A DNA stretch of 64,000 bases. Source: Auriscalpium vulgare (taxonomy: Eukaryota > Basidiomycota > Agaricomycetes > Russulales > Auriscalpiaceae). Below the pieces are notes generated by a model that was given only the letters and a program-made list of their open reading frames with translations, searched no databases and had not been told where the DNA came from. Made by a program: the position numbers and the translations under genes. Shown piece by piece: positions 3,906 to 26,641 of this stretch. The stretch covers positions 868,001-932,000 of the forward strand of contig JAHBBC010000009.1 in NCBI GenBank assembly GCA_019915015.1, given 5' to 3'. Each line of letters begins with the position of its first letter. The stretch's first letter is position 1.

Positions 3906-5502
3906 TGATACGCCTGATTCCCCGTCGAGCGGGGATTCCACCGCGACTTTTCGGTTTTTCATTTCGAACCAAAGTCACGTGACTTTGGTCTCCGGACCGT
4001 CGTTTCCGCCGTTTCGGCACAGCCACTTCGGAAAGTTCCGAAGTCACGTGACTTCGGCTCCGAACTTTCCAGCGCTTCGGCCTCGTTTCCAGTCATCCCG
4101 AGGCGCCCGCACGTGGTTCGGTCGAGACCTTTCGGCCCATCAGCAGCAGACACGCCACAAAGTCGCTGCCGGACCAAGATCAGTGTAGTGAAACGCCCCG
4201 TGAGCGTATCTCCGAGATAACCGGCTGTCACCCGGTACTTCCCTGTCCGATTCTCCCCCTCACTTATAGCGTTCCCGATTGATCCCTTCTATCGTCCCGA
4301 CCTTTCCGAGCCGAGGCGAACCGAGCCCGAAGCCATGGCTACCTTCCCAGCCACTTCGGAAGATCGTCCGCCACTCGCTGCGACTTCGGCTCGCGGGTAT
4401 ACGTTTGGCGCGCCTTGTACCGCTGAGGCGCGTCTCCACAATATCGTTCGTACTTCATCCTTCTGTATATCACATCGTAGCGACAGCGCTGATCGTTTGT
4501 CTGGTATCCATCGTTCTCGTTCCCCATAAGAGCTTCCTCTCGCTACATATGCTCGTTCCGACCCACCTCGACTTGCGACACATGATCTTTATCCACTTCG
4601 CTCGTGTTTCGTCTCTGTACGCACCTACCTATGTTCGTTTCCGTACGATACGGTCTCGCACTCGTTGTAGCTTAAATACGACTCGATAGCACACCGAATA
4701 ACAAGTTACTTTCCCCCCCATAGTCAGCATCTCGAAAGAGACGTTGCAAACCGCCCGCATCGACAGCTCTTACTGTCGTTGTACCCCTCGTCCTCCTTAT
4801 CGCCCGTAACCTCACTTTCGACTACGCCGCACGCCGCAATACGCTCGCCTTCGACTTCGCTTTCGACCTTCGCCTTTCGCACCACGTACCCCAACCTCGC
4901 TTTACGAACCTCGCTTTCCGAACCTCGCCTTCCGAACCTCGTCTTCCGAACCTCGTCTCCCGAACCTCGCCTCTCGAACATCGACGACCGAACCTCGCCT
5001 CTCGAACACCGCCATCGACAGACCTTCATCCACTTTGATATCACCTTCGAGGCCTCCTCAAGTTCAGGCCCACGACGAACGCGTTCCCCATTACACATAA
5101 CTTCGTCCTCAATCCGAAGTTGTCCGAAGTCACCCAACTACCCATCGCACCGATCAACGTATAAAGCCGAACTTCGTGTTACGTCGATCTCTCTCTCCCT
5201 CCCTCCATCGTCATTCCGCGTTCCTCCGCGTCCAACTTCGGAGCTCGCTCGTCGCGACTTCGTTTGTTCGTCACTTCGGTGACTCGTACGCTCACTCCTT
5301 CTCGTCTCCTGGTCCGGCGCACACGCCGAACCCTCATTCCGATCCGAATCCTCGTTACGACCACGATCCACGTATCGGTGGAGTCACTTCGCGAACCTTT
5401 GGGAACGTGACGACTCGCTCGCACAACAACGCGGTACCACTGACAGCGCTCTAGGGATAGGAAACTACCCATATCCGCCCTACTACCGTCTGGTGCCCAT
5501 CA
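3906..5502 (+). mobile_element. Long terminal repeat of family LTR1 (1597 bp)
   Basis: The segment begins TGATACGCCTG and ends TGGTGCCCATCA. Both ends match the solo copy at 30642-32018, which fixes the boundaries. It contains two 20-bp palindromes centred on CACGTG (3969-3988 and 4038-4057), a run of CCGAACCTCG-type short repeats (4905-4990) and the shared ending CTCTAGGGATAGG...CCGCCCTACTACC. The right flank starts GCGGTGACC, which is coding sequence of a Ty3/gypsy reverse transcriptase. The left flank ends GGAGG, so flanks do not match and upstream DNA does not encode the missing part of the RT. This suggests LTR-LTR recombination or deletion rather than a simple solo insertion. Confidence 0.85.
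3969..4057. promoter_or_regulatory. Twin CACGTG palindromes in LTR1
   Basis: CCAAAGTCACGTGACTTTGG (3969-3988) and CCGAAGTCACGTGACTTCGG (4038-4057) are perfect 20-bp palindromes around the E-box CACGTG. The second is kept base for base in the solo LTR (30785-30804). CACGTG is the classical site of bHLH factors such as Cbf1/Pho4 in fungi, so these may be enhancers of LTR transcription. That role is inferred. Confidence 0.5.
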
Positions 5503-8403
5503 GCGGTGACCATCGCGCACTCAGGAGTACCCCCCTTCCCAGATCATTTGGCGGAGCAGTTTGCGGGGCGGCCGTGCGGGGGAATTCTGGACCTCTACGT
5601 GGGCTATGACGAAAGGAGACTAGATGAAGCCTCAAGGGACCTCACGACTTTCCAGACGCCGTACGGCGCAAAACGGCTGGTGACCCTGCCTATGGGGTGG
5701 ACGAATTCCGTCCCGATCTTCCACGACGACGTGACCTTTATTCTCCAACCGGAAATCCCGCATATTACGGTGCCTTTTATAGACGACGTCCCCCTGAAGG
5801 GGCCGGACTCGGACTACAGGACGGAAGGCGGAGGATACGAAACGATCCCCGGCAACAACGGCATAAGGCGGTTCGTATGGGAACACTTTAACAACGTTAA
5901 CAGGGTAGTCCAACGAATGCGCTACTGTCATGGCACGTTCTCAGGATGGAAATCACAGCTGTGCGTACCAGAATTCTACGTGGTAGGGCACCGCTGCACA
6001 CCGCAAGGAAGGATGGCAGACGAAGAAAAGGTCGCGAAGATTCGCAATTGGGGGCCGTGCACGGACCTCTCAGACGTACGGGCTTTCTTGGGGACAGTCG
6101 GAGTCCTGCGCATCTTTATCCGTAACTTTGCGCACCGAGCCCATGCCTTGACACACCTGACGAGGAAGGACGTCCCGTTCGAATGGGGACCCGAACAGTC
6201 GCGAGCTATGGAGGACCTCAAGGAGGCAGTCCTCGCATCACCAGCGCTCCTACCGATTGATTACACGTCGGAGGCCCCCGTGATCCTAGCGGTAGACACC
6301 TCGTACATCGCGGTGGGTTTCCTATTGAGTCAGGCGGACCCCAACGTTCCCCAAGACAGGAAGAGACGCCGATATTCTCGATTTGGTAGCATCGCGCTAA
6401 ACGATCGCGAAGCGCGGTTCTCGCAGCCCAAGCTGGAGCTCTATGGTCTTTTTCGAGCCCTGCGGGCCCTTAAAGTCTACCTGATAGGGGTGAGGAACCT
6501 GACCATTGAGGTCGACGCCAGGTATATCAAAGGCATGCTGGAAAATCCTGACCTCGAGCCATCGGCCAGTATGAACAGGTGGATTATAGGCATCCTGATG
6601 TTCCATTTTGAGCTAGTGCACGTGCCGGGACTCTTCCACGGGCCCGACGGCCTATCCAGGAGGCGTAGGCAACCAGGAGACGCTCTGGAACAGGAAGACG
6701 ACTTCGACGACTGGGTTGATGCGGTGTATGGTTTCGCACATATCGTAAACATGGTAGTCCCGAAGACAGCGCAAGAGAGAGCCTCGCGACGGCAAGATGG
6801 ATGGACGGGGCCAGGAAGCATACCAGACGAACATGGGGCTGGTTCAAGCCAGGACGCGATACGTCGCGAGGAGGCCCGGCGCTCCCACGATGAACCGGCC
6901 GACGTCTGGGCAACTACGGTCCAAATGCAACCCGCACCAGTACAGGACGCGACGTATCGCGATGTTCCCAGATCAGACAAGGCTCATGAAGCTGACAAGC
7001 GGCTGGAACTAGTCAGGGACTGGTTAGGGACCCTGGCGCGGCCGGCGGACTTGACCGACGAACAGTTCGCTCGTTTCGCTCGATACGCGCTCCAGTTCTT
7101 CAAGGATGGGGACCGCCTTTTCAAAAGGCACCACCAAGGCAGGCACCAACTCGTGCTGGGAGGAGACCGACGTATCGCGGTCCTCAAAGCAGCTCATGAC
7201 GATGTCGGACACAAAGGCGTCTACGCGACGCGGATGATGCTGTTGGAGCGTTTCTGGTGGCCATACGTGGACGCAGACGTGGCCTGGTGGGTGAGAACGT
7301 GCCATATTTGCGAAACCCGACTAGTTCGCCACAGCCTGATACCGCCAACGGTGGCAACGCCGGCGAACCTTTTCGCAAAGATGTATGCAGACACCATGCA
7401 TATGCCAGCAAGCGGCGGATTCAAATACATCGTGCAAGGACGCTGCTCCGTAACCCACTATCCAGAGTGGAGAATGCTAAGGGCGGAGACGGCGGACGCC
7501 ATCGCGAAATGGATTTTCGAAGACGTCTTGTGCCGGTGGGGCGCCCTGCGAGAAGTGGTCACGGACAACGGCGCACCGTTCGTGTCGGCCTTGGAATCCC
7601 TGTCGCATAAGTATGGAGTCCGGCACATTCGAATATCGGGATATAATTCGCGAGCCAACGGAATAGTCGAGCGGTCTCACTTCGACGTACGTCAAGCGCT
7701 CTACAAGGCAGCCGATGGAAATGCTGCAAAATGGTCATCGGTTGCGTACTCGGTATTCTGGTCGGACAGGATAACGATCAGGCGGAGGATGGGCTGCTCG
7801 CCATACTTCGCGGTAACAGGAACGCAGCCGCTAATGCCGCTGGATATCATCGAGGCTTCATACTTGATGCCTCCGCCCGAGTCTCTACTGTCTTCCACAG
7901 ACCTCATAGCGCGCAGGGCAATGGCCCTACAAAAGAGAAAAGCCCAGTTAAGGACCATCCACGACAAAGTCTTTGAAGCGCGACGTATCGCGGCGGTAAA
8001 ATTTGAACGTGACCACGAAGCGACGATTCGCGACTACAATTTCAAGAGAGGCGACTTGGTCCTCCTACGGTTCACGCGGTACGAGAAGTCATTAGATCGA
8101 AAAATGCTTCCGCGCTACGATGGACCGTTCGTGGTAATTGGCCGACGGAAAGGAGGACCTTACGTGCTTGCGGACCTCCACGGTGCGCTCTTCGACCGAC
8201 CGGTCGCGGAGTTTCGCGTCCTTCCTTACTTCGCGCGAACGAACATTGCGCTGCCAGAGTTGCCCGAATTTCTGGACGTCCCACAGTCCAGGGTGGACGA
8301 GCTACTTCATGAAGATAGGCAGGATCACGATGCCATTCATGAAGAGGAAGCAGACGACCCCACCAGGGAAGACGATGACAAGGACGACGAGATCACCGTC
8401 TAA
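5503..8403 (+). pseudogene. pol: Ty3/gypsy Pol fragment: RT (partial), RNase H, integrase (Gy-A)
   Basis: An uninterrupted frame of about 965 codons encodes the back part of a Ty3/gypsy polyprotein. It enters in mid-RT with AVTIAHSG, the place where related fungal Pol proteins read LNAVTI. RT acidic residues are Asp29 in GILDLYVG and FIDDV (91-94, counting from the GTG at 5506). RNase H follows (Asp264 in LAVDTS, Glu311, Asp337 in VDARY, Asp381). The integrase has an HHCC zinc finger (HDDVGH...CHIC) and a DD35E core (Asp ~628 in YADTM, Asp ~687 in VTDNG, Glu ~722 in IVERS), then a GPFVVI C-terminal domain. There is no ATG; Gag, protease and the RT fingers are missing because LTR1 abuts at 5502. 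Catalytic residues are intact but the fragment cannot act alone. Confidence 0.92.
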
Positions 8404-12376: not shown

Positions 12377-13414
12377 CTATTCCTCGCGCTCCATCAGGAG
12401 CTCGATCACCTCCCCCTCCTCGACTTCTTCCGAGCTGGCGATGGGCGGCGGTATCTCCCCGGCGTAGGTAGGAGACGCGGAGGGGGCCGTCGGCGCTGGT
12501 ACCGTGGGGTGCGCGGGGAAGGGAAGAGGGCCCGGCTGGTCCGAGGGATGGACTATGGCATCGAAGCCTAGGGGTATCTCAGCTATGGCTTGGGAGGAGG
12601 AGATGTGCGAGAGGCGCGCAGAACTGATCTGCTCGATGGCGCGAATCGAGGCCACGCTGATATCCTGGACCAGGAAGTCTGCGGGCTGGAGGTTGGCCAG
12701 GAGGCGGGACCCTAATCCCCATGCGTCCAGCATCCCGCCCATACAGGTTGCCATCGCGGCCCAGCGCATGTCGAGGCGATCCAACACCAGTGGCCAGTCC
12801 GCCCAAATATCGCGAAACGTGTCGAAGGCCTCGGAAATGGTGGTAAAGTCCCGTAACATATCCACCGAGTCCTCCGCGAGGCCCCCCAATAGGTAGTACA
12901 CCACGCCCGTGGTGAGGCGGCCCGCGTAGGCACGAGAGTGGGGGGAGCTGGAGGCACCACGGACGTGGTAGGCCAGGGCGCGGCACACGGCGTCTTCGCG
13001 GGTAATAACAAACATCCCATGGACGGCCCGGGCGTCGAAATCACGTAGGAGCCAGCTCTGCATCCCCTGAGGACGCAGGGTGGGGAAGGCGCCATGCAAC
13101 TCCGTGATTTCATGGAGGTAGGATTCGACAGAACCGTCTCCGAAGTAGTACACGGTCCAGAGCCCAGCCTCCACGATGGTGATCAAGACGTGGAGTTCCG
13201 CGTCGGTAGCGTCGGCAGGGAAAGGGGAGAACATCTGGGACCACCGCGGGCTGGCGCGCGCTGAGTCGGGGAGGGTACGCATGAGGGTGCCCTCGAAGCG
13301 CTGGGCGAGAGGGGCGGACGCTGGAACGAGCTTCACCATGAACTCGAGGATCGGCGAAGTGAAGTGGAAGGCAAGATCGCGCAGGCTGCGGGACGCGCGG
13401 ATTGAAGAAAGGGT
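12377..13414 (-). pseudogene. Gy-A antisense gene C, exon 2 (3' part, split by KDZ insertion)
   Basis: This 1038-nt exon encodes 345 residues from TLSSIRASRSLRDLAF to the acidic tail EEVEEGEVIELLMEREE. It holds the body of the gene C protein, a paralogue of gene B. Its 5' boundary coincides with the target duplication of the KDZ transposon at 13407-13415, and the matching first exon is 13 kb away at 26642-26791. With the transposon removed, exon 1, a 61-nt intron (GTGCGT...TTCCAG) and this exon join in phase 0 to give about 395 aa with no stop. As it stands the transcript would have to splice across 13.2 kb, so the gene is probably inactive. Confidence 0.8.
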
Positions 13415-13415
13415 C
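13407..13415. repeat. Target-site duplication of the KDZ element, left copy
   Basis: GAAAGGGTC, repeated exactly at 26573-26581 next to the other end. Eight or nine bp is the expected size range for KDZ/Zisupton-type elements. On the minus strand the first base completes the AG of the gene C splice acceptor. Confidence 0.85.
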
Positions 13416-13473
13416 AGGCGTCCCTGTAGCTTAATAGCAATACATACCAATGCTTGTCGGGCAATCCATTACA
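13416..13473 (+). repeat. KDZ left terminal inverted repeat
   Basis: About 58 bp match the reverse complement of 26515-26572 at roughly four of five positions. The best-kept block is AATACATACCAATGCTTGTC. The outer four bases and a few inner ones differ, so the two ends have drifted. Confidence 0.8.
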
Positions 13474-13778
13474 TATATATACCGATCACACAATATATTA
13501 TAATACACGCTTAGAACAGCCTGAAAAAATCGTGAAAAATACAAAATATATTACAGGGGGTCGGGTTGGGGGGCGGGGGAGCGGGAAAACCTCGGGAAAT
13601 CGTCAAAAAGGTGTAGAAAATGCTCAAATAAAATGTAGAAAATGCTAAATTAATACAGGGGGTAGGGGTTCGGAGTTGGCCTGGTTCTATGTAGGCGTAG
13701 AGAGCCGCGTGTCTCTGGATATCAAAACATTGATAGAATTAGTATTTGGACAAAAAAAAAGAATTGGGGTACTTACCA
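13474..13778. other. KDZ left subterminal non-coding region
   Basis: AT-rich with G-runs. Two related blocks (AAATACAAAATATATTACAGGGGGTCGGG near 13537 in shortened form, and AATTAATACAGGGGGTAGGGG near 13652) form a diverged direct repeat. It holds the 3' end of the transposase gene and possible transposase-binding repeats. Confidence 0.5.
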
Positions 13779-16700
13779 TTAGTCCACCTCCATGGGCTCG
13801 TCCTCCGGCCCTCCGATGCGAAATCCATCGTCTTCGCGACCCTCGAGGAACCGTACGGCATCCGCTCGAACATCCGCCCACTGGGTGGTGCATCGATCGG
13901 CGAGGCCATGGAACATGGCGGCTTGCTTCGACGCATATGCTAGGAGGCCGTCGGACAGCTCAGGCGACGCGTTCGAGCGTGCTGACCCGCGTACAGTCCA
14001 GGCGCTGGACAGCCAGCGGTACGTCGCCTCGACCCTGCGCATATCTTCATGGACTTGCATGACTTCTTCCAGCCAGCGTGTGGATCTTGCACGGGTTTTG
14101 AACCACTCAATTTTGAGGTCTTGGAGAACAGCAGTTAGCAGGGACCTCCTGGGCATAGCACGATAACGCACCGTTTGACAGGCCCTCCTCCTCCCCTTCC
14201 TCGCCCGACGCCTCGGTGTACCAGATCCAAGGAAGTTTATAGCGACTTTCGCCGCTCGCTTCGCCGCCTCTACGGGACCGCAAGAACTCCAACACGCTGT
14301 CTTGATCTGCTTGATCGATGGCGTCGATGAGGCGGGCACCGAGCCCAACGAGGTGGCCGTCCTCAAGCACTTGAAGCTTCTTCTCCCAATCGCCAGGCCC
14401 GACAAGACGCAGGTGCGCCGCACGATGCATGCGGTATGTTTCGGCATCGCGTTTGACCCCGACTTCAATACGGGCTTGAAGTGCACGCGCCCGCGTGTTC
14501 TTCCTCTGGCCAGTGACGTTCGTAATCTTGAATCGGTTCACGTAGGTTCGAAACCTGAGTTGATGCCGCACGCCGTCCAGGGCTTCACTTGTGGCGGCCA
14601 AACACAGTTTTGCTTCAATGTCGACGAGCGTGCGGTCGCACAGCGCGTGCCGTTCACTAGCCCCGATGTCGGATGGCAGGTATAGCTTGATATTTTCGGG
14701 TCGGACGGTGGTGTGAGACAGTGTTGATTCATCGGCATCTATAATGGAGGCGACGTGGGGCATGTGGATCTCCTGGTCGGCACGGAATCGATGGATGAGG
14801 CGTAGGAGGGCCGTGCGAGACTCCTGCACCCGCGCGAGTTGGCTTGATGTGTCCCCGTCACCAGGACGCCTATCGAGCCGGAGTCGAAGCCTGGATGCAT
14901 TGGTCATTACACGACAAGCCCATGGAAGGCGGAGGCCACGTACTGCATGCTTTGAATACGTAGACCGGCCAGAATAAACGCGTTTGCCGCGGGCTGCGAT
15001 GTTGTCAGCTCTTCGGATACAACGGCATCGTGGTCTTCTTCGGCCAGCTCCAGGCGCACATCCGCCACTGTGACGTCTGTAGAGATCAGTCAGTATGGAA
15101 AGCAGAGTGAATGAATATATCGTGAGACGTACCACTTGCGGGCCTGCGATAAGGGCTCGGCCCTTCCTCTGTAGCCTCCCAGCGCGCAATCTCCTCCTTC
15201 CATTCACCAAGTTCCTCGGGATGGTCGTCCTGCAGAGCGGTGGAGAAGTCGGTGAACACGTCGCCCTGGGCCGTCGCCTCCTGGATAGCGTTCTTGAGCC
15301 GCCGCGGCAGTGAGATCACTACAAATAGCATGAGACATGTTGAAATAAAAGGGAGGCAGAGCTACGTACGCATGCCCACGCATTTCCGCCAATTGGCATG
15401 CCCACAGTGATCGTCCAAGGTGTCGTGTCGCGCGCCCGGCCCCATCTCCTTCGTACTCGAGGCTGCGCCGTTGAGGTTGGACCAACTGCGCTCGGGGGCT
15501 TCTCCATCATTCTGCCCCGCACCAGGTTCGGACGGGAGGCTGAGCTTGCCTTGGCATTCCTCTCGATGTGCGGGGTGGTGAAACTTGGGGATGGCGTACC
15601 GCACGAAGCTCGGGAGGGACCACTGAGAGACGTCGGCCATGCGCTTGAGTATATTCTTGGACCACTGACATGCAATGTCATAGGATACAAGAAGCGATGA
15701 ATTCTTGATGGACTTGATCGTGCTGAAGAACATATAGTCCATATTGCAATATCTAGAAGGCGGAGGTGAGACGACGCATGGCTTGGTATGACTGCAACAC
15801 GCACCTTTCACCCTTCTGAAGATCTCCCAAACCCACGGGCCTCCACATATCATGGCGTGCGCAAAAAACTCCTCCCACTCCGGTGACGCGTAGGCCCTTA
15901 GTGCTTTTGAGGTTCGCGGCGGCGAGGGCGGCAAACCGGGAGCATCCGCTCATCTTGCAGGTACGTCAGCGAGTGCGTCAATTCGAAACGGTACAACACG
16001 GCGTACCTCGTCCTGGTCAACGTAGTTTGCGAGATGCTGTTCGTACTCTGTGTCACCAACGAAATACGCCTTCCCTGTATTGAGGCCGGGGTCCATGGAC
16101 TTCGAAGACCGTAAGCGATTTTTTAATCGAAAGTTTGCGTCGATGGCGAGGTTCAGACGGTATAGCCACCTGTAAAGAATGAGAACATGCAGCCTATATG
16201 TCCAGTGACTCGCATACGTTCGGTTCGGAGGCGCCGATGCCCAGTCGTAAGGGAGATTGATGTCTGGGTGGGGGCACGCCGGGCACATCACTGCACACTC
16301 GCCATCCTTCGTGCCTGCGATGCCCGACTCGTCGTGCGCGCGCCCAGCTCTCTTGACCATGGTGATATGCCTCCATTGCCGTATCATTGTCATCCAGCTT
16401 GGCAATCGTTCCTGTGACGCGCGTTAAATAACGGCGGGTATGTGAGACAAGACGGGCGTACCGGTACGTCCATTAGCCCTGAATTATCTGTCTCGAACTC
16501 CATGGCCTTGTACGCGTCGTATCCCGTAAGTTTACCGGCCAACGACAGGGTATGGAACTTGTCCAAGGCGTCAAAAGTTGCGGCGGTGCTGGGTTCAACT
16601 GTCGTCGCGGGCCACCAGGATGCACGGAGGAGCTGCTGGCGCCGTTGGATACCGGCTGCGCGACCACAACCGCAAAAGTCGAGATTGATTTTGTGGATAC

Positions 16701-17549
16701 CGTTTGTGTGGAGGATGGTGAAAACGCCACGCGCCGGCTCGCGCAGGCCACACGTCGTGCCGGGCGGGTGGTTGAGCTGCACGCGGAGACCAAGTGACGC
16801 GAGGGAGATCCGGACAAAGAACGAGCCGTTCCATTTCTGTGGAACAATCGAGTGGTCAGCGGAAGCCGAAATGCCGAGAGTTCAAGACTCACCTCGACAC
16901 GGTGCAGGGGATGCAGCGCATGGCATTTAACGGCGCATCGTGCACACGTCATGCCGCCGCCGAAGCAGTCACGACAGCGAATGGTGGCGTCTTCCTCGCC
17001 GTTGCAGCCGCCTGAGCATTTGTCCGCGCCTAGGTATGCGCCGCGTCCTTCGAGTCGTAGCACCTCGTCGAGGTACTCGTCGCGTAGAGGGATCCATGTG
17101 AGAAGAGGGAAATCCTGCGGTAAGAAGCGGTCAGCTGAGAACGGGCGTGCGCAGAGCGCATGAAGGCGACGGACCGAGTTCTGGTATCGACGCGCGCGCC
17201 CAAGCGCTACGTCTGCAGGCGTTATGTGGACAACCTCGCCAACTTCATCGACACCCAACAGCCCTCCTTCGACAGCATCGGCAAGATCGTTGGCGACCGA
17301 AATGTTGTCATAGTCCCCACCAAAGGCGGCGTCCGGGTCGAGCTGGACAGACGAAGACCTCCTGGGTGCTGGCGCCGGGGTGACAGGCTGGAGCAGGTGG
17401 CGGGTTGGAACGACATGGGTAGAGCGGCTGAGGAGACGGCGGCCGTCGGTGGAGGCCTGAAGAACTGTGGCTGATGTCTGCGAGCCAGCAGAGTCTTCAA
17501 ACCATCCAGCATTGTTCGTCTTCTTCTTCTTGGATCTTTTGCTGGGCAT
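13779..17549 (-). CDS. KDZ-family transposase with CxC2-type Cys cluster
   Basis: Multi-exon minus-strand gene, ATG at 17549 (MPSKRSKKKK, a basic N-terminus). Order: acidic N-terminal region; Cys-rich CxC2-like domain (DKCSGGC...CRDCFGGGMTCARCAVKCH...HRVE) across 17060-16890; YRWLYRLNLAIDANFRLKN (about 16165-16110); the KDZ core with CARHDMWRP, LQKGERYCNMDYMFF, SYDIACQW, PKFHHPAH, DGEAPERSWSNLN and STKEMGPGARHDTLDDH (15870-15380); a long helical region; and the typical C-terminus EWFKTRARSTRWLEEVMQ ending at 13779. SYDIACQW and DGEAPER carry the presumed catalytic Asp and Glu, both intact. Introns are 45-65 nt with GT...AG ends. No internal stop was found in the exons read. KDZ enzymes move large DNA transposons and in basidiomycetes often lie beside TET/JBP genes, as here. 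Confidence 0.9.
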
Positions 17550-17682
17550 GGTGGTGGCGTGACCGTGACTCGGACGCGTTGCGTGGGCGCTCAGTCTGAC
17601 TCAACGAACCGCGGACAAGCTCACGTGACGATGTTTCAACGCAGTTCACATTCAACAAAGTAGTACTACCGGGCGTTTGTAG

Positions 17683-19364
17683 CTAATCGTCACCACCAAA
17701 AGCGTCCTGGATGTCCTGAGCCAGCTCATCGTATTTTGAAAAAAGATTGACCGCGTCGCGCCACCTCTGTCGCCGGTTGCGGTCCATCTGCGCCTTGGCC
17801 GCGGGATCCTCGGCTTCAAACTTCGCCTCAGTGCGATGGCCGTACGCGTTGTAGCGAAATATTCCGCCGGCGGTGTACTGCGTGATGGACGCACGCGTCT
17901 CGTGCACCCCGATGGATATGTTGCCGTGAGGAAAGATGGCGGAGAGTATATTGATGACAGAGTGCGGGGGGAATTCGATGATGAGCCTCGCCTTGTGTAA
18001 GATAAGGTGCCCGCCAAATTTGGGATTGTAATCGCCGAGTGACATAATACTGCACCATCCGCAAGGGTAGTTCGCGCAGTCCACGTGGATGTTGGTGCAC
18101 ACGTTGGGGCCAAAGTTGTACGTGGTGGCGGCCCAGATAGAGTTGTCGTACGGAAGCTTCAGGGCGGGATCGTGGTCGAGAAGGTCCTGCATGTTCTTCT
18201 CGTACTCTTTGTAATGCTTGGGGGACCCGAACGCGAAGGTGCCTATGGAAGAAAATCGTCAGAGCTGATGACGAGCTGGATGGCTGACAGCGTACTATTC
18301 ATAAAGCCCGCGAACCGCCGGACGCTCGGCCTCGTCTTTATCTCATGTACCAAGTCGTCGTTGCCATGCAGCGCCAGCGGCGAAGGCTCCTGCAAGTAAT
18401 CGTCAGCGATGCGCCCCAACGTGGCAGGGTAGAAGTCACGCACGGTCTGACCGCCTCCAAATGATATGCCGGTTGCGATGGTTGGATAATTGCCTCGACG
18501 GTGCACAAGCTGGCCACTTGATAGCCGGAGTTTGACTCGCATGCGCGCCAAGGTGTCGTAGGCATCAACACCGTCGTCATCCCAGGTGGCATCGTCCGCC
18601 GGGCGTCCTGCGAGGGTGCCAAGAATGCGCCCCTTCGAATCTATAATGGCCATAAGTCGGCTTTGCAAGACCTGTCAGCGCGTCCTGTGCAAAGTTAGTC
18701 GGAGGAGTACACACCGGCCGTCCCACCCTACATAGTGAAAGCCCGCGGAGGTATACTTCTTGATTGCGAGAACCGTGCTTGACGGCAGGAGATGATCCCG
18801 CATGCCCACCCATCCGTTTCGCGTGTGCGGCATCTTCTCGGCCAGCAGACGGACTTCTATCTTCTTTGGCTTGCTGTACTTAACAACCGTGCGTGCACGG
18901 ACCTTGTACACCATCACGCGCTCCGACTTTCTTTTGTTGTCCTTCAGGCGCTGGCGTCGAAGCTTTGCGTGGTACTTGCGCTTGCTGCACTCCGCTTCTT
19001 CGTCGCCTGGTGCTGAACGGTGGGGTGGCCTGCAGACGTCCGGGTCAGCATCCCTTACGACAGCCCGAGGAGAGAGAGGTGGGACGTACGCCTGTGGGGC
19101 GGGAGGTGTGGGCGCGGTTGCAACGCCGGATGCGGCTGCTGCCGCTTCGAACGCCTCGTCGTCGCGCTCAATAGCGCCGTCAATCAGCTGCTCAACCTCA
19201 CAATCATCCGGAATACGAATCAGTGATCCTGGTAGAAGAGGCTGCGCGTTTGAAAGCTCAGCAGGAATGTCGTACGGCGAGAATATGCGCTTGGAACGCG
19301 TCTGCTGGGGGAATCAGAGCGGGGTGCGTATGCACGCAAAATTAAGACGCACCTGGCGAGACAT
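17683..19364 (-). CDS. TET/JBP-family 2-oxoglutarate/Fe(II) dioxygenase
   Basis: ATG at 19364 (MSRQ, then a ~57-nt intron from GTGCGT). The next exon runs through KRIFSPYDIPAELSN, a linker, a basic segment (KRKYHAKLRRQRLKDNKRK) and MPHTRNGWVGMRDHLLPS. Further exons carry GRILGTLAGRP, RRGNYPTIATGISFGGGQT, RRFAGFMNST and FAFGSPKHYKEY. The last exon (from about 18230) has the catalytic core: NIHVDCANYPCGW with the HxD iron motif, FGGHLIL, FPHGNISIGVHETRASITQY with the distal His and the Arg that holds 2-oxoglutarate, then GGIFRY. Order and spacing fit the TET/JBP enzymes that oxidise 5-methylcytosine in DNA. It lies about 130 bp upstream of the transposase start on the same strand and inside the same TIRs, so it travels with the transposon. 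Activity is inferred from intact motifs. Confidence 0.88.
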
Positions 19365-21067
19365 TGACGCGCTTTCGACGGACTACAGCACGCCTTTTGA
19401 AAATACCGTGATAGTCCTAGCATTTTCAGGTCAGCAAGCTGCAGCGCCACGAACGCCGGAGGCGGGGAACAGAAGGCGGCCCGCCGCTACGCGACATGAC
19501 CAACGCGCGCCCAGCGGTCCCGGTAGGGCTCTCGTCAAGGGTTGCGTTGGATTACAGTCGGCGTGAAGCACCTGCAGCCGGTTTTCGCATGCGGTCCCGG
19601 TAGGGAGCTCGACTGTACGATCCCGGAAGCACAGCACAGACGGGGAGGAGTGATGGATGTCAAGAGAAAAAGAAGCTCACAAAGATATGCAAGGTCGTAA
19701 CAATGAGCCAACAGAATTTGAGCTAGAGGGGGTTTGGGTGCGATGGTTTTATGGTGGGAGATGGTGGTCGTGGCTGAACGCCGCGACGCGGTCACGGTAC
19801 CTCACCCTACCGCCCAAGCGCAGCTAAGCGCCGCCGAAGCGCCGGCCACTTTGACCTCATCGAGCTCACAATACATGGACAATGGCTTGGATACATTTTC
19901 TGGTATTTTTCCAGGGCATACAGTGTTGGTACCTATGCACTGTACTATTTTCGTAATTACGCTTTGTTTTAAATAACTGCTATGGCTGTGAGGCATGCGG
20001 ACTCAAGTACTCACGAGTTAAGCAAGGCGATCACTTGAATCCTCCCACCCCATGCACACCGCCCGTTCTCATCGACATCCTTCGACACAGCACAGACCAG
20101 TCGGCTCGATCTGGTGCGTAGCTAGCATCTGATCTCCCTGCATGATGCTTACTGCGCCTGCGGGTTCAATAGCAGTCGCAGCTCCCAGAGCCAGACTTAG
20201 CGCGGTTCACGCAACCAGTCAGAGTCATCTGGACAAGCTGGACAACAACAGTGCGCCTCTTTATCCCTAGCATTGTGGCTTATGTTTTACTCATTGATGA
20301 GTCGCTGTTGCTAGTGGGCACGCCGGTGCCTCCGCTCCCAGTGAACCAAGCGAACCCGGCGCACATCTATAGCAAGACCTCTACATCCGGGCGCACATCT
20401 GTAGCAAGACATCTACATCATCTGCACATCGTGCACGTCTCTGGAGCAGATCTTCACATGTCCGTGAACCACTTCGCTGTGCGCACACCGCGTACATCGG
20501 CCGTGCGGTACGTTGATTTCATTACATCCCTGCGGCGCCTCCGGTCGCACCCTTCATAATTAGCTCCCTTGGTCTCTGTTTCTATCCATGTGATGGGCCA
20601 CCCGCTCCTCACATATGTTGCGCACGTATGCGCATGTCCAATCTGGTGCGCGCTGCGTTATGTTGCACCATATCCGTTCCTGTAAGTCAAATTAACATCC
20701 TACCATGTCGTCATCAGCTTGACCGGCGACGCACGCAGGTAAAGGCAACATACCGAGCTCTATTCCCACCTGCAAAGCATGGCGTAGATCAGTGTACCGT
20801 TGCTTTGGGCGCTGGGCAGGTGAGCTCCACCGACTCAGTTATTCAAGCCGCTCTTCTCACATGCCGATACCTTGCAGGCAACAAACGCTCTCGCTGCATC
20901 CCACATTCCTTATCGAAGAGCTAACAATTTGTCAAGAGGACCAGGCCCTCTTTGTACGCTTCTCTTACTCTTCTCCTCCTCTGCTCACCGCATGCATGGT
21001 GCGCGCGCTTGTCTTACACCTTAAATAGCGCAGGCAGCCGCCGCTTTACGCCCAGTTTCCAACCATC
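19365..21067. other. KDZ internal region without a recognised gene
   Basis: About 1.7 kb between the divergent TET/JBP and viroplasmin-type genes. It should hold both promoters. Several frames of 80-100 codons are open but show no motif. A short repeat, GGGCGCACATCTGTAGCAAGAC-like with CTACATC, appears twice around 20365-20420 (written here only in part). The longer frame 18802-19566 on plus is the antisense of the dioxygenase. Confidence 0.5.
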
Positions 21068-21669
21068 ATGTTGTCCTCCTCCGCCATGGAGCACGCTATG
21101 TCTTCGCTCACGGACGAAGTCGTGGATATCCTCAGCAAAGTCTCGCTCTCGCTCGAGACCTCATCCACTCCCTCGATCACGGACGGCGTGCCGTGCAAGA
21201 AAGCCCCCGATGAGCCTTGCGAGCCACCGCCGACTCCGCGCCCAGCTGGCGTGGCCCGCGGCGCTCGCGGCCATCGCAGCGCAGACAATTCGGACGCTGA
21301 TGAGTCGGACATGGATATGGACGCTGGGGATGGCTCGCAGGCGGAGCAGGCGGAATGGGGCGGGCCCGCGTGGGTGGTGTTCAAGGGAAGGCGGCCAGGC
21401 GTCTACCGCACTGCGTAAGCTCACTTTCTATCAGACTGCCACGCATCCATTAATCTTCGCTTAGCACGGCGTTCATGTCGGCACGCGGCTGGTCTTACTG
21501 CGTGAAGGTTGAGAAGTTCAGCAGCTACTGGCTCGCTCGCTCGGCGTATGAGGAGGCGCGCAAGACGAGGGGCGGACTGGTCACATTCACCCGGCAGTGG
21601 GAGCTGAGGACCATGGAGGCCATGCCGCCGCGCGGAAGGGGGAAAGGGCGGGGGAAAGGAAGGCACTAG
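21068..21669 (+). CDS. Viroplasmin / RNase H1 N-terminal-like domain protein
   Basis: Two exons: 21068-21414 and 21465-21669, joined over a 50-nt intron (GTAAGC...CTTAG). The ~183-aa protein has an acidic linker and then the split domain WVVFKGRRPGVYRTA / TAFMSARGWSYCVKVEKF...ARSAYEEARK. This is the pattern of the small fold shared by Caulimovirus viroplasmin and the hybrid-binding domain of RNase H1 (W-V-V-x-K-G-R-x-P-G-V-Y, then F.K.F and EEA). It ends in RGRGKGRGKGRH, a basic tail. No RNase H catalytic domain follows. Such domains bind RNA/DNA hybrids or double-stranded RNA. It is transcribed away from the dioxygenase and lies within the KDZ ends, so it is cargo or part of the element. Confidence 0.72.
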
Positions 21670-22146
21670 GAAGGGCGATCTGCAAGCATGACGTTTAGAA
21701 GTCACTGCCCGATCCAGCGGCACAGTTTCCGTACTCAAAATGTCCTCCCCTTGTTCGTTTAGCTATTGTTGTCTCGTTGTCTCGTGGTTGCGCCCTTCAG
21801 GCGAATATAGTGATTTCTTGCGGCACAGGAAACTATCAGAAAGCAGAAGGTGGATGGTGTGCGGTGTGCGGGCAACGGGCGCGATATTCAGCGAGTCCGC
21901 ATTCGATGTTGAGCTCCCTTGGATACGGATTTCAATTAGAGACGAAATATTATGACAGGTCGGCGCGCGTCGGCCGCAGCTCTAGAAAGCTTTTGCGAAC
22001 TGAGTCGTGTTAGCATGATCGCCGTCGCTCCAAATTTAATAGCTACAAGCCTGGGCCGTACCATCAGCCTCTGGGAACCTCGCTGTCGCCCTCTGAATCC
22101 TCCCCACATCCTCCCGCACCCTCTCCGACCTCTGACCAAAACCACC
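21670..22146. other. Intergenic, KDZ
   Basis: No gene is recognised. Pyrimidine-rich sequence (CCTCCCCACATCCTCCCGCACCC) directly precedes the ATG at 22147, as in many fungal promoters. Confidence 0.5.
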
Positions 22147-24860
22147 ATGCCGAAAACGACCGCTCAGAGCCTGAGAAAACCTCGCGGTCGCACACCCTGG
22201 GCCACCGGCTTTAAAGAAAAATTCCTGGAACGCTACGTTAGCGACTATCAGAAGGTATCGGGCAGCAAGAAAAGTGTTCACCAGTTCTACAGGCGTGTTA
22301 CGAGACTATTCTTCATAGCGTTCGGGCACAGCTTGGCCATCAACGAAAATCCCGAGACGGAGCCTGAGGCGCCTGACGAATCGAGGCTTGACGATGCGTC
22401 GGACCATGAGGATGAGGATGAGGAGGCCCGGAATAACAGGGAGAATATCTTCAAAGATGTATTGAAGGTAAGCGCACCGTCGCCTGCAACGATCGACGCT
22501 CACCTCCTTGCCACAGAAAATCAGTGATTGGTACCCCCATCGCATCCGCAAGTTGACGGCCACCGCCGCGCCATCCGCTGTCGCATCTGACGACTCGTAC
22601 ACCGCTGTCGCCCGCAAGGTAGTCGACCCTCCGCGCCGCGAGCAGGCCCAACACGTGTATTCCGACCTGTATTGGGACGACCGGATCAAGGCGCATTACG
22701 AGCAGACTGCAGCGGTAGCTATCGCGAGCAGCGCTAACAAACCCATGCCGAGGGACGTCCATTTGAAGATGAGAGCCGTCAGAGAGCAGTGGGAGGGCGA
22801 GACGAAGGAGTTCCAGGATGAAATACACGCCGAGGTCGAACGCCGGTATGAAGCCGCCCTTGCGGAGTACAAGCGAACGTACGTCGACCCGCCGCAGACG
22901 GATGAAGACAAGGAATGGTGAGAGCGGCATTGTCCTCTTATAACGATTCCACTCACCGATGGCCAGGGCGGGCGCGAACGCATACATGGCCCTCCAACCG
23001 TTCGTTGACAGTGTGGCCAAGCGCTTCAACTGTGTTGCATCCATCTTCATGGCGGGTCCGATTCCTTCGAAAAAAGGCAAAGTGGAGGTCTTCTCGTGCG
23101 TGGCTGGTCGTATTTTCTTGTGCTGTCGCGTTGCTCAGCCGTCTCTGCACAGGGTTCACGCCGGGAAAAAACGCGGCGCTATCGACCAGATTTGGGCGCT
23201 ATACGACGTCAATGCCTATAAAGAAACCTCGGCATCGATATCAGGGTTTGCGGAGGCGGTATTCGGTGAGGCTTACCTTTGTAGCCTTGGAGGACGGCGG
23301 TGCTGACTTTGACGGTTGTGTAGCAGAAGAAATAAAAGACATGGCTAAAAGAGGCAATGCGGCGCGCAACGCGGATGCCACGTGCAGCGAGGGCTCTGCC
23401 TCCAACTCAAACGTCCTCCCTGCGCCCGCCTCATCCACGGTCCCCTCCGCGATGCCTACGTCCTCCACATCACCCTCGTTGGTCCCATCCTTTCCCACTG
23501 GAGCCCCATCCGTCATCCACTCGAGCGCGAGCGCGAGCGCGGTGCTGTCCGCCTTCCAGACGACACCCATCGACGAATCCGTGGAAGCCGTGCCCGCTGC
23601 ACTCGCGCCTGGTGCTGTGGCTGTCAACATCGTCGCAAATGCAACAGTCAACCTGCCCGCGGACGGCTCCGTGGTGACAGCGACGTCCACCGCGCGGGCG
23701 ACCACACGTACTCCGCCGCCAAGCCCTGCGAACCCGCCTACTGGCACATCCACACCCCCGCCGCCGTCCATCCTCACCCCAATCCCTACCACATTGCCCG
23801 CGCATTCGCGCTCATCTGCTCCGTCACCAGCGCCCACCTCCACCACGCCCACGCTCCAGGCCCATGCGATTACGTCCACAGCCACGGTGACGGCATCCAC
23901 CGCCATCGCGCCGACTTCGAGCGCGAGCGCGAGCGCGTCAGCATCGGCAGCAGCAGCAGCAGCAGCTGATGTCTGGGTCGACACCACCGCTACTATCACC
24001 GCAGCGACGGTGTCCTCCAGCGCAACCGTGGTGGTCTCTCCGCCAACGCCACCCCCGCTGCCGGCCGCAGCAGGTATCCTCGAGCTCGCCCCATCCGTTA
24101 GCGCCCCGGGCGCTTCAGTGGCCGACTCCCTCGCAGATCGCGGCTGGCCCGACTTCTTTGAGCGCGGAGTCAAGACCATGCACAACGATGGCCTGGGTCC
24201 CGAATGGAACGAGGTCCTCAAGAATTACTGCGTGTTCGAGGAGATGATGGCCTTCGGGGTGCGTCGTCAAATCTCTTCATGTTAGCCTTTACTAACCAGT
24301 GCTTAGAACGGATCCTCCAAGAAGCTTGGGACCTACCAACGCCCGGCACTTGTCGCCGCGTGGTTCAAGGACGGAAGACCGTGGCATAAGGGCAGGCTCC
24401 AGCCAAAGGACATCGCAAAGTACGCCAACGACTTCAACGACTGGTGGGCAAGCCTTCAGCCCGCGGAGCGCCGCCTCAACGACGGCTCGCTGAAGCCGCC
24501 GTCCACCACAATGGATTGGTCAACCCTGTGCCTTGGTGGCATGGGCGGCTTCCTCGTCGTTGTCGTGGCTGCGTTCTGGTGGGGCTACGCGGTGAGGTTG
24601 TCGGAGGACGCGGTCAAGGCCAGCTGGCACGCTGCCATAGCCGACATACGCAGCACCCTCGCCGCCATGCGACCCCACGCCCTGCAAGTTAATCCCAAGA
24701 CCACAGTCGCATCCAAGGCCCCTCGTGGAGGAAAGCGGGGACGCAGCTCGACCGCGAGGTCTGAGAAGGCGAGGCCCTCTAAGCGCATAAGGTGCGTGAT
24801 CCAGTCATCCTTATCCTCTGCGGTCTTATGCTAACTTGTCTCGTTTCTCGCAGGAGATAG
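22147..24860 (+). CDS. Large unrecognised KDZ-borne protein, Ser/Thr/Ala/Pro-rich middle
   Basis: ATG 22147 (MPKTTAQSLRKPRGRTPWATGF). Exons as read: 22147-22469, then KISDWYPHRIRKL...DEDKEW to 22918, several short exons to about 23320, one long exon to about 24258, and a last part from NGSSKKLGTYQRP that ends RIRR-stop at 24860 after a final intron. The N-terminus (FKEKFLERYVSDYQ...FYRRVTRLFF) and the C-terminal block (GWPDFFERGVKTMHNDGLG, then AAWFKDGRPWHKGRL and FNDWWASLQPAERR) look like an Agaricomycete-expanded family of unknown function. Between them lie ~250 residues of Ser/Thr/Ala/Pro low complexity. One hydrophobic segment (GGMGGFLVVVVAAFWWGYAV, ~24535-24595) may be a membrane helix. 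The tail is basic. Role unknown. Confidence 0.6.
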
Positions 24861-24879
24861 CTGCGCACTCCCAGTGCAT

Positions 24880-25350
24880 GCTTTGCCCTCCTGTAGCTTG
24901 TCGCCCACCTGCCCGCCGCCCATTTGCCATTGCCCAAAGCCCCTGTGCCATAGCCCATCGAGCATCGCCTGACCATCGCTTGTCGCCCGCCGCCCATCAT
25001 CCATCGCCCACGGCTCATCGCCCACCGGACATTGCCGGTCACTCATTGCCCATTGCCTCGCTTGTCTCGCGCCCATTGTCTCGCCCTCGTTGTTGCCTGT
25101 CGCCTGTCGCCCATTCGTCAGCCCTCGCCCACTGGCCTTGCTTATTGCCCCGCGATTGTACCCTTGCGCACTCCCGCACGGCCCCCCAGATTTCTGGGGT
25201 GCGTTCAGCGCGTCGCTCATTGTCCATTCCCGGCGCCGTCGTTCGTCGTCGCCTCGCCACACTTTTTTGGCCCGCCGGTGTTCACGCGCATCGCCAGGCG
25301 CTACTCGTGGCCGATTCCCGCTCGTTCCCCGTTGCCCATTCGCTTACTGT
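24880..25350. repeat. Low-complexity CCCATTGCC/TCGCCCA-rich tract
   Basis: Short degenerate units (GCCCATTGCC, TCGCCCACCG, CATCGCCTG) recur across ~450 bp on both sides of 25000. Frames open in several phases are by-products of the repeat. It follows the stop of the preceding gene. Confidence 0.65.
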
Positions 25351-25678
25351 TTCTTGAATACATTGTCCTGGTGTCTCATTATGCCCGCGTTACTGTTGAT
25401 ACATAGCACTACTCTAGCTCATTGTAATATAAGTACTGCGTGCTCAAAGCTCAAAGTTATAGGCAGTAGTGTGAACAGCCACAATAGCATGCGTGGGAAT
25501 TCCGCCTTGGGGACCTGTTCTCGACATCGGCCTGTGCGCGGGTGACCACTCGTTTACCTCTTTACTAGTCCTGAGGTCATGTGTTTGTTTGTGGTCTCTA
25601 GTGAGCTCTTATGACAATGATAATACAAATACAATGTACCTCGAGAAATCGCAGTTCCCCCAACTTCCTCTGTCTTTG

Positions 25679-26380
25679 GTATGTGGGAATATTTCTCCGC
25701 ATTGGGTAGGAGGCAACGTGACGCGGAGAAACCACGGGCTCCCGAATATTTTCGGGTTTTTCGGGGGTTTTCTGATTTTTTTTAGTGTGTGGGAAGATCT
25801 CCCCACATTTGGTAGGCAGGCAACGTGACGCGGAGAAACCACGGGCTCCCGAATATTTTCGGGTTTTTCGGGGGTTTTCTGATTTTTTTTAGTGTGTGGG
25901 AATATTTCTCCACATTTGGTAGGAGGCAACGTGACGTGGAGAAACCACCGGGCCCCGAATATTTTCGGGTTTTTCGGGGGTTTTCTGTTTTTTTTTTTAG
26001 TGTGTGGGAAGATTTCCCCACATTTGGTAGGCAGGCAACGTGACGCGGAGAAACCACGGGCTCCCGAATATTTTCGGGTTTTTCGGGGGTTTTCTGATTT
26101 TTTTTAGTGTGTGGGAATATTTCTCCACATTTGGTGGGGGCAACGTGACGTGGAGAAACCACCGGGCCCCCGAATATTTTCGGGTTTTTCGGGGGTTTTC
26201 TGATTTTTTTTAGTGTGTGGGAAGATTTCCCCACATTTGGTAGGCAGGCAACGTGACGCGGAGAAACCACGGGCTCCCGAATATTTTCGTGTTTTTCGGG
26301 GGTTTCTGCGGGATTTTGTAGTGTGTGGGAAGTTGTTTCCACATTTGGTATGTTTTGACATTTTCTGAATATTTTCAATA
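25679..26380. repeat. 107-bp tandem array with alternating monomer types
   Basis: The landmark AGTGTGTGGG falls at 25784, 25891, 25999, 26106, 26212 and 26320, so monomers are 106-108 bp and there are about seven, the last one decayed. Each has a CCCGAA/TTCGGG hairpin, a T-run and a conserved GCAACGTGACG. Two variants alternate: GGGAATATTTCTCC...GTAGGAGGC and GGGAAGATTTCCCC...GTAGGCAGGC. The true repeat is therefore a ~214-bp dimer. It lies just inside the right KDZ terminus and is not coding. Confidence 0.9.
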
Positions 26381-26514
26381 TTCAGGGTTTTCCAGCCGTG
26401 GGAACAATATAGGGGTGACCCAAAATGATCCCCGGGGTGTGGGAAAGCACTGGCGAGACGAAGAACAGGCCATATTAGCTGATATATGCAATATATACCC
26501 CATTGGTCATTCAT

Positions 26515-26572
26515 TGTAATGAGTCCCCTGACAAGCATTGGTATGTATTACTATTAGACTACAGGGACTGGT
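26515..26572 (-). repeat. KDZ right terminal inverted repeat
   Basis: Inverted match of 13416-13473; see the left repeat. It is followed at 26573-26581 by GAAAGGGTC. Confidence 0.8.
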
Positions 26573-26641
26573 GAAAGGGTCTGGAATTGAGTTCATCATC
26601 AGCCAAGCCGGGAAAAGACGCGGTCGGGGACCAGCACGCAC

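Follow-up and report, generated by a model that had tools for sequence, protein, structure and literature searches.

TnpA of En/Spm and VANC of the plant Vandal elements are transposon-borne proteins with an anti-silencing role, and both are DNA-binding proteins rather than dioxygenases. Other transposons carry a dioxygenase of the TET/JBP fold, some of them together with a transposase of the KDZ class, a name whose source is said to be Iyer in 2014. TET-carrying Kyakuja elements with defined ends, 7-bp target duplications and CA..TG termini were published in 2025 (Kojima, PMC12730594). That paper already holds the idea that the enzyme serves escape from silencing, and it states that the function of TET-bearing transposons has not been validated (PMC12730594). 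Here we describe an element of this kind in a 64,000-nucleotide stretch of the genome of Auriscalpium vulgare (the window; contig C9, positions 868001-932000); the genome examined comprises 51.6 Mb in 96 contigs. A first-pass annotation of the window had proposed a complete KDZ transposon with a TET/JBP dioxygenase as a true component, and so much of its interpretation stands, although the kind was already in print; the parts that appear to be new are the type of the enzyme, its sharing between KDZ and Plavaka elements, and a third gene that we call G3B.

Two published types of transposon-borne TET serve as the standard of comparison. In CcTet of Coprinopsis cinerea, Gly331 and Asp337 lie 3 and 9 residues past Asp328 of the HxD motif; the place of Gly331 is that of the residue contacting 5-methylcytosine (5mC) in other TETs (Asp234 in NgTet1), and human TET2 with the change N1387G gains activity on 6-methyladenine (6mA) (PMC11040006). 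The AG-type TETs of Kyakuja keep Asp337 and have Gly or Ser at 331, are described as not transferred between superfamilies, and in the Russulales are accompanied by the statement that only TET-carrying Kyakuja elements occur there; the PE type is marked by HxE and rides on Plavaka, Zisupton, IS3EU, EnSpm and Helitron elements (PMC12730594). Zisupton and the described Dileera family duplicate 8 bp of target, against 7 bp in Kyakuja (PMC12730594).

Results

The element is 13,159 bp long and has CA..TG termini (Table 1). A genome search with its left end, of the sort proposed in the first-pass annotation for finding other copies and empty sites, returned ten places: four at 100% (rounded), two at 76% on contig C25, and four opposite arms. 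The first four belong to full copies on C9 (the window), C22, C48 and C17, which are 98.6-99.9% identical in alignment, all start CAGGCGTCCC and end GGGACTGGTG (termini CAGGCG..CTGGTG in 4/4), and have target duplications AAAGGGT, GAGGGTC, CCTCTAC and CTCCTCC, each present on both sides. The inverted repeats agree well beyond chance, at 46/54 positions against a best of 31/54 among 200,000 random pairs. The direct repeat measures 9 bp at C9 and 8 bp at C22, while C48 and C17 permit exactly 7; the 9-bp duplication originally read at C9 is therefore a 7-bp one lengthened by two chance matches, and the alignment of the four copies moves the borders from 13416/26572 to 13415/26573. The left flank (window 12700-13414) is repetitive itself; scoring 40 of 62 candidates gave at least 40 copies at 98-100% of this repeat, for whose longest open frame here (12377-13414, minus strand) no Pfam family was found. 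Three copies of this repeat were fetched as empty sites; each has AAAGGGT once and no element, with 2, 3 and 0 differences per 385 bases from the joined window flanks, which is direct proof of insertion there. Four full copies, two relatives, the duplications and three empty sites thus bear out a complete transposon with both ends defined. Taking the explanation as a whole, we consider it likely that what lies here is a Kyakuja-like cut-and-paste DNA transposon of the KDZ class, still intact, which inserted recently into a high-copy repeat.

Two substitutions separate the window copy from the C22 copy once the tandem array is excluded, and both copies keep open frames for the predicted KDZ, TET and G3B genes. 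The transposase of the C48 copy contains a single stop, and ~469 bp are inserted directly before the G3B start of that copy; in the C17 copy (L013/L014) the transposase gene is interrupted by a 3.3-kb insert with inverted ends of its own, GGGGAGCTCAGAGTAGACCG. By eye, apparently the same ~467-469-bp sequence occurs in the C48 copy (L011/L012) and the C25b copy (L017/L018); it is probably a small non-autonomous transposon. The two C25 relatives, ~75% identical, share the left end, and their right ends match only in part. A locus on C1 has a related right end (81%) and G3B, no left end, and neither TET nor KDZ among the matches listed; this right end runs contrary to the general picture, in which the ends do not merely flank shorter unrelated DNA and TET and KDZ genes are not always apart.

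The predicted dioxygenase has a double-stranded beta-helix of the TET/JBP kind: its list of fold matches is led by CcTet, NgTET1 and TET2, above CMD1 and prolyl hydroxylases, with ~13-17% identity to CcTet in the fold alignments. The iron triad and the 2-oxoglutarate Arg are present (H334, D336, H387, R398); both His and the Arg are invariant and the Asp is found in 11 of 12 sequences aligned, and HxD, which is HVD in the window, stands in all 41 own-genome rows read (window and 40 loci). The TET/JBP core with HxD, His and Arg recognised at first pass is confirmed by this ranking and these residues. The window protein has no match to Pfam Tet_JBP (PF12851) up to E 1, the best score of any window-type locus is 26.8 bits against a cut-off of 34.9, and searching the PDB by sequence brought up no TET, whether from the window TET, from its alignment or from one relative. 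A database search with the window TET returned 11 proteins, the closest from Auriscalpium vulgare at 88% over 61% of the query. The Lys-rich N-terminal part matches GINT1_N, a glycosyltransferase N-terminal family, at 18.2 bits (cut-off 27), which more likely reflects composition than kinship.

TET is present in all six elements recovered by the left end, that is, in the four full copies and the two C25 relatives. In comparison with the C25 family the ratio of nonsynonymous to synonymous substitution rates (dN/dS) is 0.11 for TET, 0.070 for the transposase and 0.231 for G3B, ratios that are approximate because dS, at 1.2-1.6 for all three, is near saturation. With TET clades that follow the transposase type, as set out below, these results support the original proposal that the dioxygenase is a true component of the element, under purifying selection.

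Genome-wide, the TET core exon has 104 matches (101 merged loci, eight at 27-30% identity), KDZ at least 168, CxC2 84 and Plavaka 127. Among the matches listed, KDZ/CxC2 lies within 12 kb of 28 of the 101 TET loci, Plavaka of 32, both of three, and neither KDZ nor Plavaka of 44; uniform placement would give ~3.6 loci with Plavaka (maximum 9 in 500 trials) where 32 are seen, a weak null since repeats cluster. Comparing 75 of the 84 CxC2 matches (9 fragments below 80 bits omitted) with all 104 TET matches, we find TET just upstream on the same strand at 13 of 52 strong-CxC2 loci and, at 42 of these 52, G3B upstream and reading away from the transposase on the opposite strand (null 0.4); none of the 23 weak-CxC2 loci has TET or G3B upstream. 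G3B is thus the more constant partner, and TET is an addition in one sublineage.

Elsewhere in this genome, Plavaka and a second KDZ lineage carry dioxygenases of the same sequence group as the window TET. Our tree of core exons holds 47 rows: 40 of the 101 loci, hand-picked across classes, the window, and 6 of the 11 database proteins. All 16 Plavaka-linked rows (of 32 such loci) fall in one 19-row clade (99/97), the other three rows being two unlinked loci and L080; a 12-row clade (100/99) takes in all eight rows whose KDZ lies at about -6.4 to -9.6 kb, plus four unlinked ones, and a 10-row clade holds the window together with four more rows having KDZ at +1.82 to +1.89 kb. The own-genome KDZ exon tree separates the +1.85 kb and -6.4 kb kinds into two deep groups; it has 19 rows, five of the former kind, three of the latter and 11 others, with C25a included, duplicates removed, and three of 30 loci lacking a usable exon (among them L048, of the -6.4 kb layout). 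One Plavaka-linked element, C22:729432-745310 (L059, L093, L095), with a second copy on C51 (L094, L096), was delimited by reading the outer 5 kb per side in the two copies. By eye, it has perfect 26-bp inverted repeats, CATCTGGAAACCTACTCTATACTAAT (one changed base at the C51 right end), and 2-bp duplications, GT on C22 and TA on C51; on C22 the Plavaka match spans 734201-735235 and the window-type TET 744335-744874, ~0.4 kb from the right end. A C9/C10 Plavaka-linked family was set aside as an example for its ragged left end and nested insertions.

Aligned ungapped with CcTet, the window and all 40 loci read have Asn at the 331 place and Cys at the 337 place, and they have HxD, not HxE; judged by the text descriptions of the AG and PE classes, the window type fits neither. 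Genes above the Tet_JBP cut-off lie at 11 places in the genome, none of which is a window-type locus. Six of these stand at a fixed offset, on the opposite strand, from a weak-CxC2 KDZ gene (3.75 kb to CxC2) and are probably a second family of TET-carrying KDZ elements; two more lie ~13 kb from a weak-CxC2 KDZ gene, on the same strand, and three near none. One gene of the six was read: its search retrieves CcTet (E 2.8e-14), its residues at the 331 and 337 places are Gly and Asp, and its alignment to CcTet (HRDTSGPIEGMD) checks the residue spacing. Its match to the window TET is faint, 27% over 78 residues at E 9e-5 as a single comparison, and a profile comparison gives a probability of 33%. 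On balance we favour the view that the window enzyme belongs to a fourth TET/JBP type (HxD, TET2-like Asn, Cys, a Tet_JBP score below cut-off) at ~100 loci, one that has passed between two deep KDZ lineages and Plavaka, beside a CcTet-like AG-type on other KDZ elements, and so forms a mobile anti-methylation module of unrelated transposons. For TET, Plavaka, Basidiomycota and methylcytosine together, a limited literature collection yielded only PMC12730594.

Table 1. Features of the element (window coordinates) and the six Tet_JBP-type genes elsewhere in the genome (contig:position).
Feature	Position	Strand	Evidence
Left target site duplication AAAGGGT (7 bp)	13408..13414	.	direct repeat with 26574-26580; single in 3/3 fetched empty sites
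Left terminal inverted repeat, start CAGGCGTCCCTGTAG	13415..13473	+	48/59 positions match right end; start point common to 4 full copies and 2 diverged relatives
KDZ transposase gene, 10 exons, 1099 amino acids (predicted)	13779..17549	-	Pfam KDZ 216.3 bits, CxC2 128.1 bits
TET/JBP-fold dioxygenase gene, 5 exons, ~467 amino acids (predicted; 5' end provisional)	17683..19307	-	catalytic core in last exon 17683-18242
Weak candidate gene G3A, 2 exons, 177 amino acids	21086..21669	+	spliced open frame
Third gene G3B, 6 exons, 808 amino acids (predicted), no Pfam family	22147..24834	+	open spliced model; dN/dS 0.231
Subterminal array, ~107-bp repeats each with dyad GTGGGAANATTTCYCCAC	25656..26351	.	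7 matches, 25683-26345
Right terminal inverted repeat, end CTACAGGGACTGGTG	26515..26573	-	pairs with left repeat; copy alignment
Right target site duplication AAAGGGT	26574..26580	.	copy alignment and empty sites
Six fixed-offset Tet_JBP-type genes	C8:1578966, C9:154498, C9:492869 (L100), C13:416026, C13:539088, C14:947177		

The transposase has its CxC2 domain coded at ~16477-16803 and its KDZ domain (PF18758; cut-off 26.6 bits) at ~15392-16162. The first introns of the G3B model recur in the C25 family. No G3B homologue outside this genome was found at E <= 0.001, in a search hampered by low-complexity stretches and length limits, and the fold predicted for residues 1-321 from the single sequence (mean pLDDT, the predicted local distance difference test score, of 41) was too poor for use. 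G3A was dropped, both as a gene and as a supposed likeness to an RNase H1 N-terminal domain: it has no Pfam match, and its dN/dS against the C25 family is 0.83. Between 0.2 and 0.9 kb inside the right end lie seven matches to GTGGGAANATTTCYCCACATT, spaced ~107 bp apart, against a mean of 0.02 in shuffles; the C25 family keeps a dyad at the same place, GTGGGAAGTGATTCCCAC, within a repeat that has diverged. Elsewhere in the window, a 980-residue open frame of a long terminal repeat (LTR) retrotransposon, with RNase H and integrase domains, lies at 5461-8403 on the plus strand.

DNA methyltransferase PF00145 has five matches at three places in the genome. Of the 31 C>T/G>A changes among the private substitutions of the four copies (array excluded), 23 lie at CpG, where 31% would be expected (P 1.2e-6), and of the CpG changes whose context is readable in the window (n=21; copies C9, C48 and C17), 11 are at TCG, against 22% expected (P 0.002). 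The CpG transitions suggest past CpG methylation of the element, as seen across four TET-carrying copies; hypermutation is reportedly not detected in Agaricomycotina (PMC12730594). CpG depletion was tried as a sign of methylation or protection and discarded, none being present in the 8 stretches measured.

Discussion

With a 7-bp duplication in 4/4 copies and at the empty site, and CA..TG termini in 4/4, the element would be classed as Kyakuja-like. It shares with the published TET-carrying Kyakuja elements a KDZ-class transposase, these two features, a TET/JBP gene inside the borders and an Agaricomycete host (PMC12730594). It differs from the two Laccaria Kyakuja families, which are said to be without inverted repeats (PMC12730594), in having clear ones, matched at 48/59. 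From the AG-type Kyakuja it is set apart by Asn/Cys, by a Tet_JBP score below cut-off, and by the presence of the same TET type on Plavaka; with the PE type it has in common a highly diverged TET/JBP gene linked to Plavaka and KDZ relatives, PE having HxE where HxD stands here (PMC12730594). Unlike CcTet, the window enzyme is without the Gly331/Asp337 pair tied to dual 5mC/6mA activity (PMC11040006). KDZ and Plavaka elements of Marasmius oreades have been characterised likewise by their inverted-repeat ends, with no TET gene mentioned in the part of that paper drawn on (PMC8290104).

We propose that the transposase would cut at the inverted repeats, while the dyad repeats inside the right end would be read by G3B and possibly by the transposase. 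The dioxygenase most likely oxidises 5mC on the element's own DNA, which would keep the element expressed or transposable despite host methylation; its Asn leads us to expect recognition of 5mC as in human TET2 and not in the Gly/Asp way of CcTet. Escape from methylation through TET is plausible. The likeness to TnpA and VANC would lie in anti-silencing on a transposon and in an array of short sites just inside one end, with a dioxygenase here in place of their DNA-binding proteins.

Several points weigh against this proposal as a whole. To the near-saturated dS already noted may be added that TET stands just upstream at only 13 of the 52 strong-CxC2 KDZ loci, so that the class can do without it. 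One row next to a KDZ gene, L080, falls in the Plavaka TET clade. The CpG transitions suggest that a TET with an open frame did not prevent methylation, at least in the C48 and C17 copies, and CpG observed/expected is 1.02-1.17 in TET-carrying elements and TET-less repeats alike (8 stretches), so that no relative protection is visible.

It could be argued from the 39 of 52 strong-CxC2 KDZ loci without a window-type TET just upstream that the dioxygenase is passenger cargo, useless to the element and kept by hitchhiking. We think this improbable, given the low dN/dS of TET between two families (with dS near saturation), a TET frame free of internal stops in the window and its three sister copies, even in C17 and C48 where the transposase is broken, and TET clades that track three transposase groups. 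Nested insertions are frequent in this genome (C17, C48, C25b), and the 44 TET loci with neither KDZ nor Plavaka close by, among the matches listed, might suggest that TET came to lie beside KDZ by chance, through nesting of unrelated repeats; a constant distance and orientation of TET at 13 KDZ loci, identical borders in four copies and the empty site make that hardly credible for this element.

Of more substance is the reading of the locus as an ordinary AG-type TET-carrying Kyakuja element as published in 2025, with which the 7-bp duplications, CA..TG ends, KDZ transposase and Agaricomycete host agree (PMC12730594). It is nonetheless unlikely: the window and the 40 of 101 loci read have Asn/Cys and not Gly or Ser/Asp, and the window family's sequences do not find CcTet, whereas the Tet_JBP-type gene of the same genome does. 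The enzyme might also write a lasting modified base, 5-hydroxymethylcytosine (5hmC) or a hypermodified one, on transposon DNA instead of demethylating it, a mark that would label the ends for the transposase or alter silencing at other elements too. The occurrence of oxidised methylcytosines at transposons of Laccaria and Coprinopsis, among them retrotransposons (PMC8889193, PMC12730594), agrees with this, as do the CpG transitions, which suggest a cytosine modification not simply erased, and, for what a probable effect of composition is worth, the GINT1_N match. The element has no partner such as a glycosyltransferase over the Pfam cut-off, and the present evidence does not tell whether oxidised bases would be a mark or a repair intermediate; we hold the lasting mark to be possible but doubtful, and retain oxidation of 5mC in the service of escape as the preferred reading.

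To judge by the window type, catalogues that rely on CcTet or on the Tet_JBP profile would overlook a large group of TETs. TET-bearing transposons are a rare case of selfish elements that may edit the DNA methylation of their host, and the Auriscalpium vulgare genome offers near-identical open copies, an empty site, relatives of one transposase group with and without TET, and three transposase groups that have one TET type next to them; what the enzyme does could thus be compared within one nucleus.

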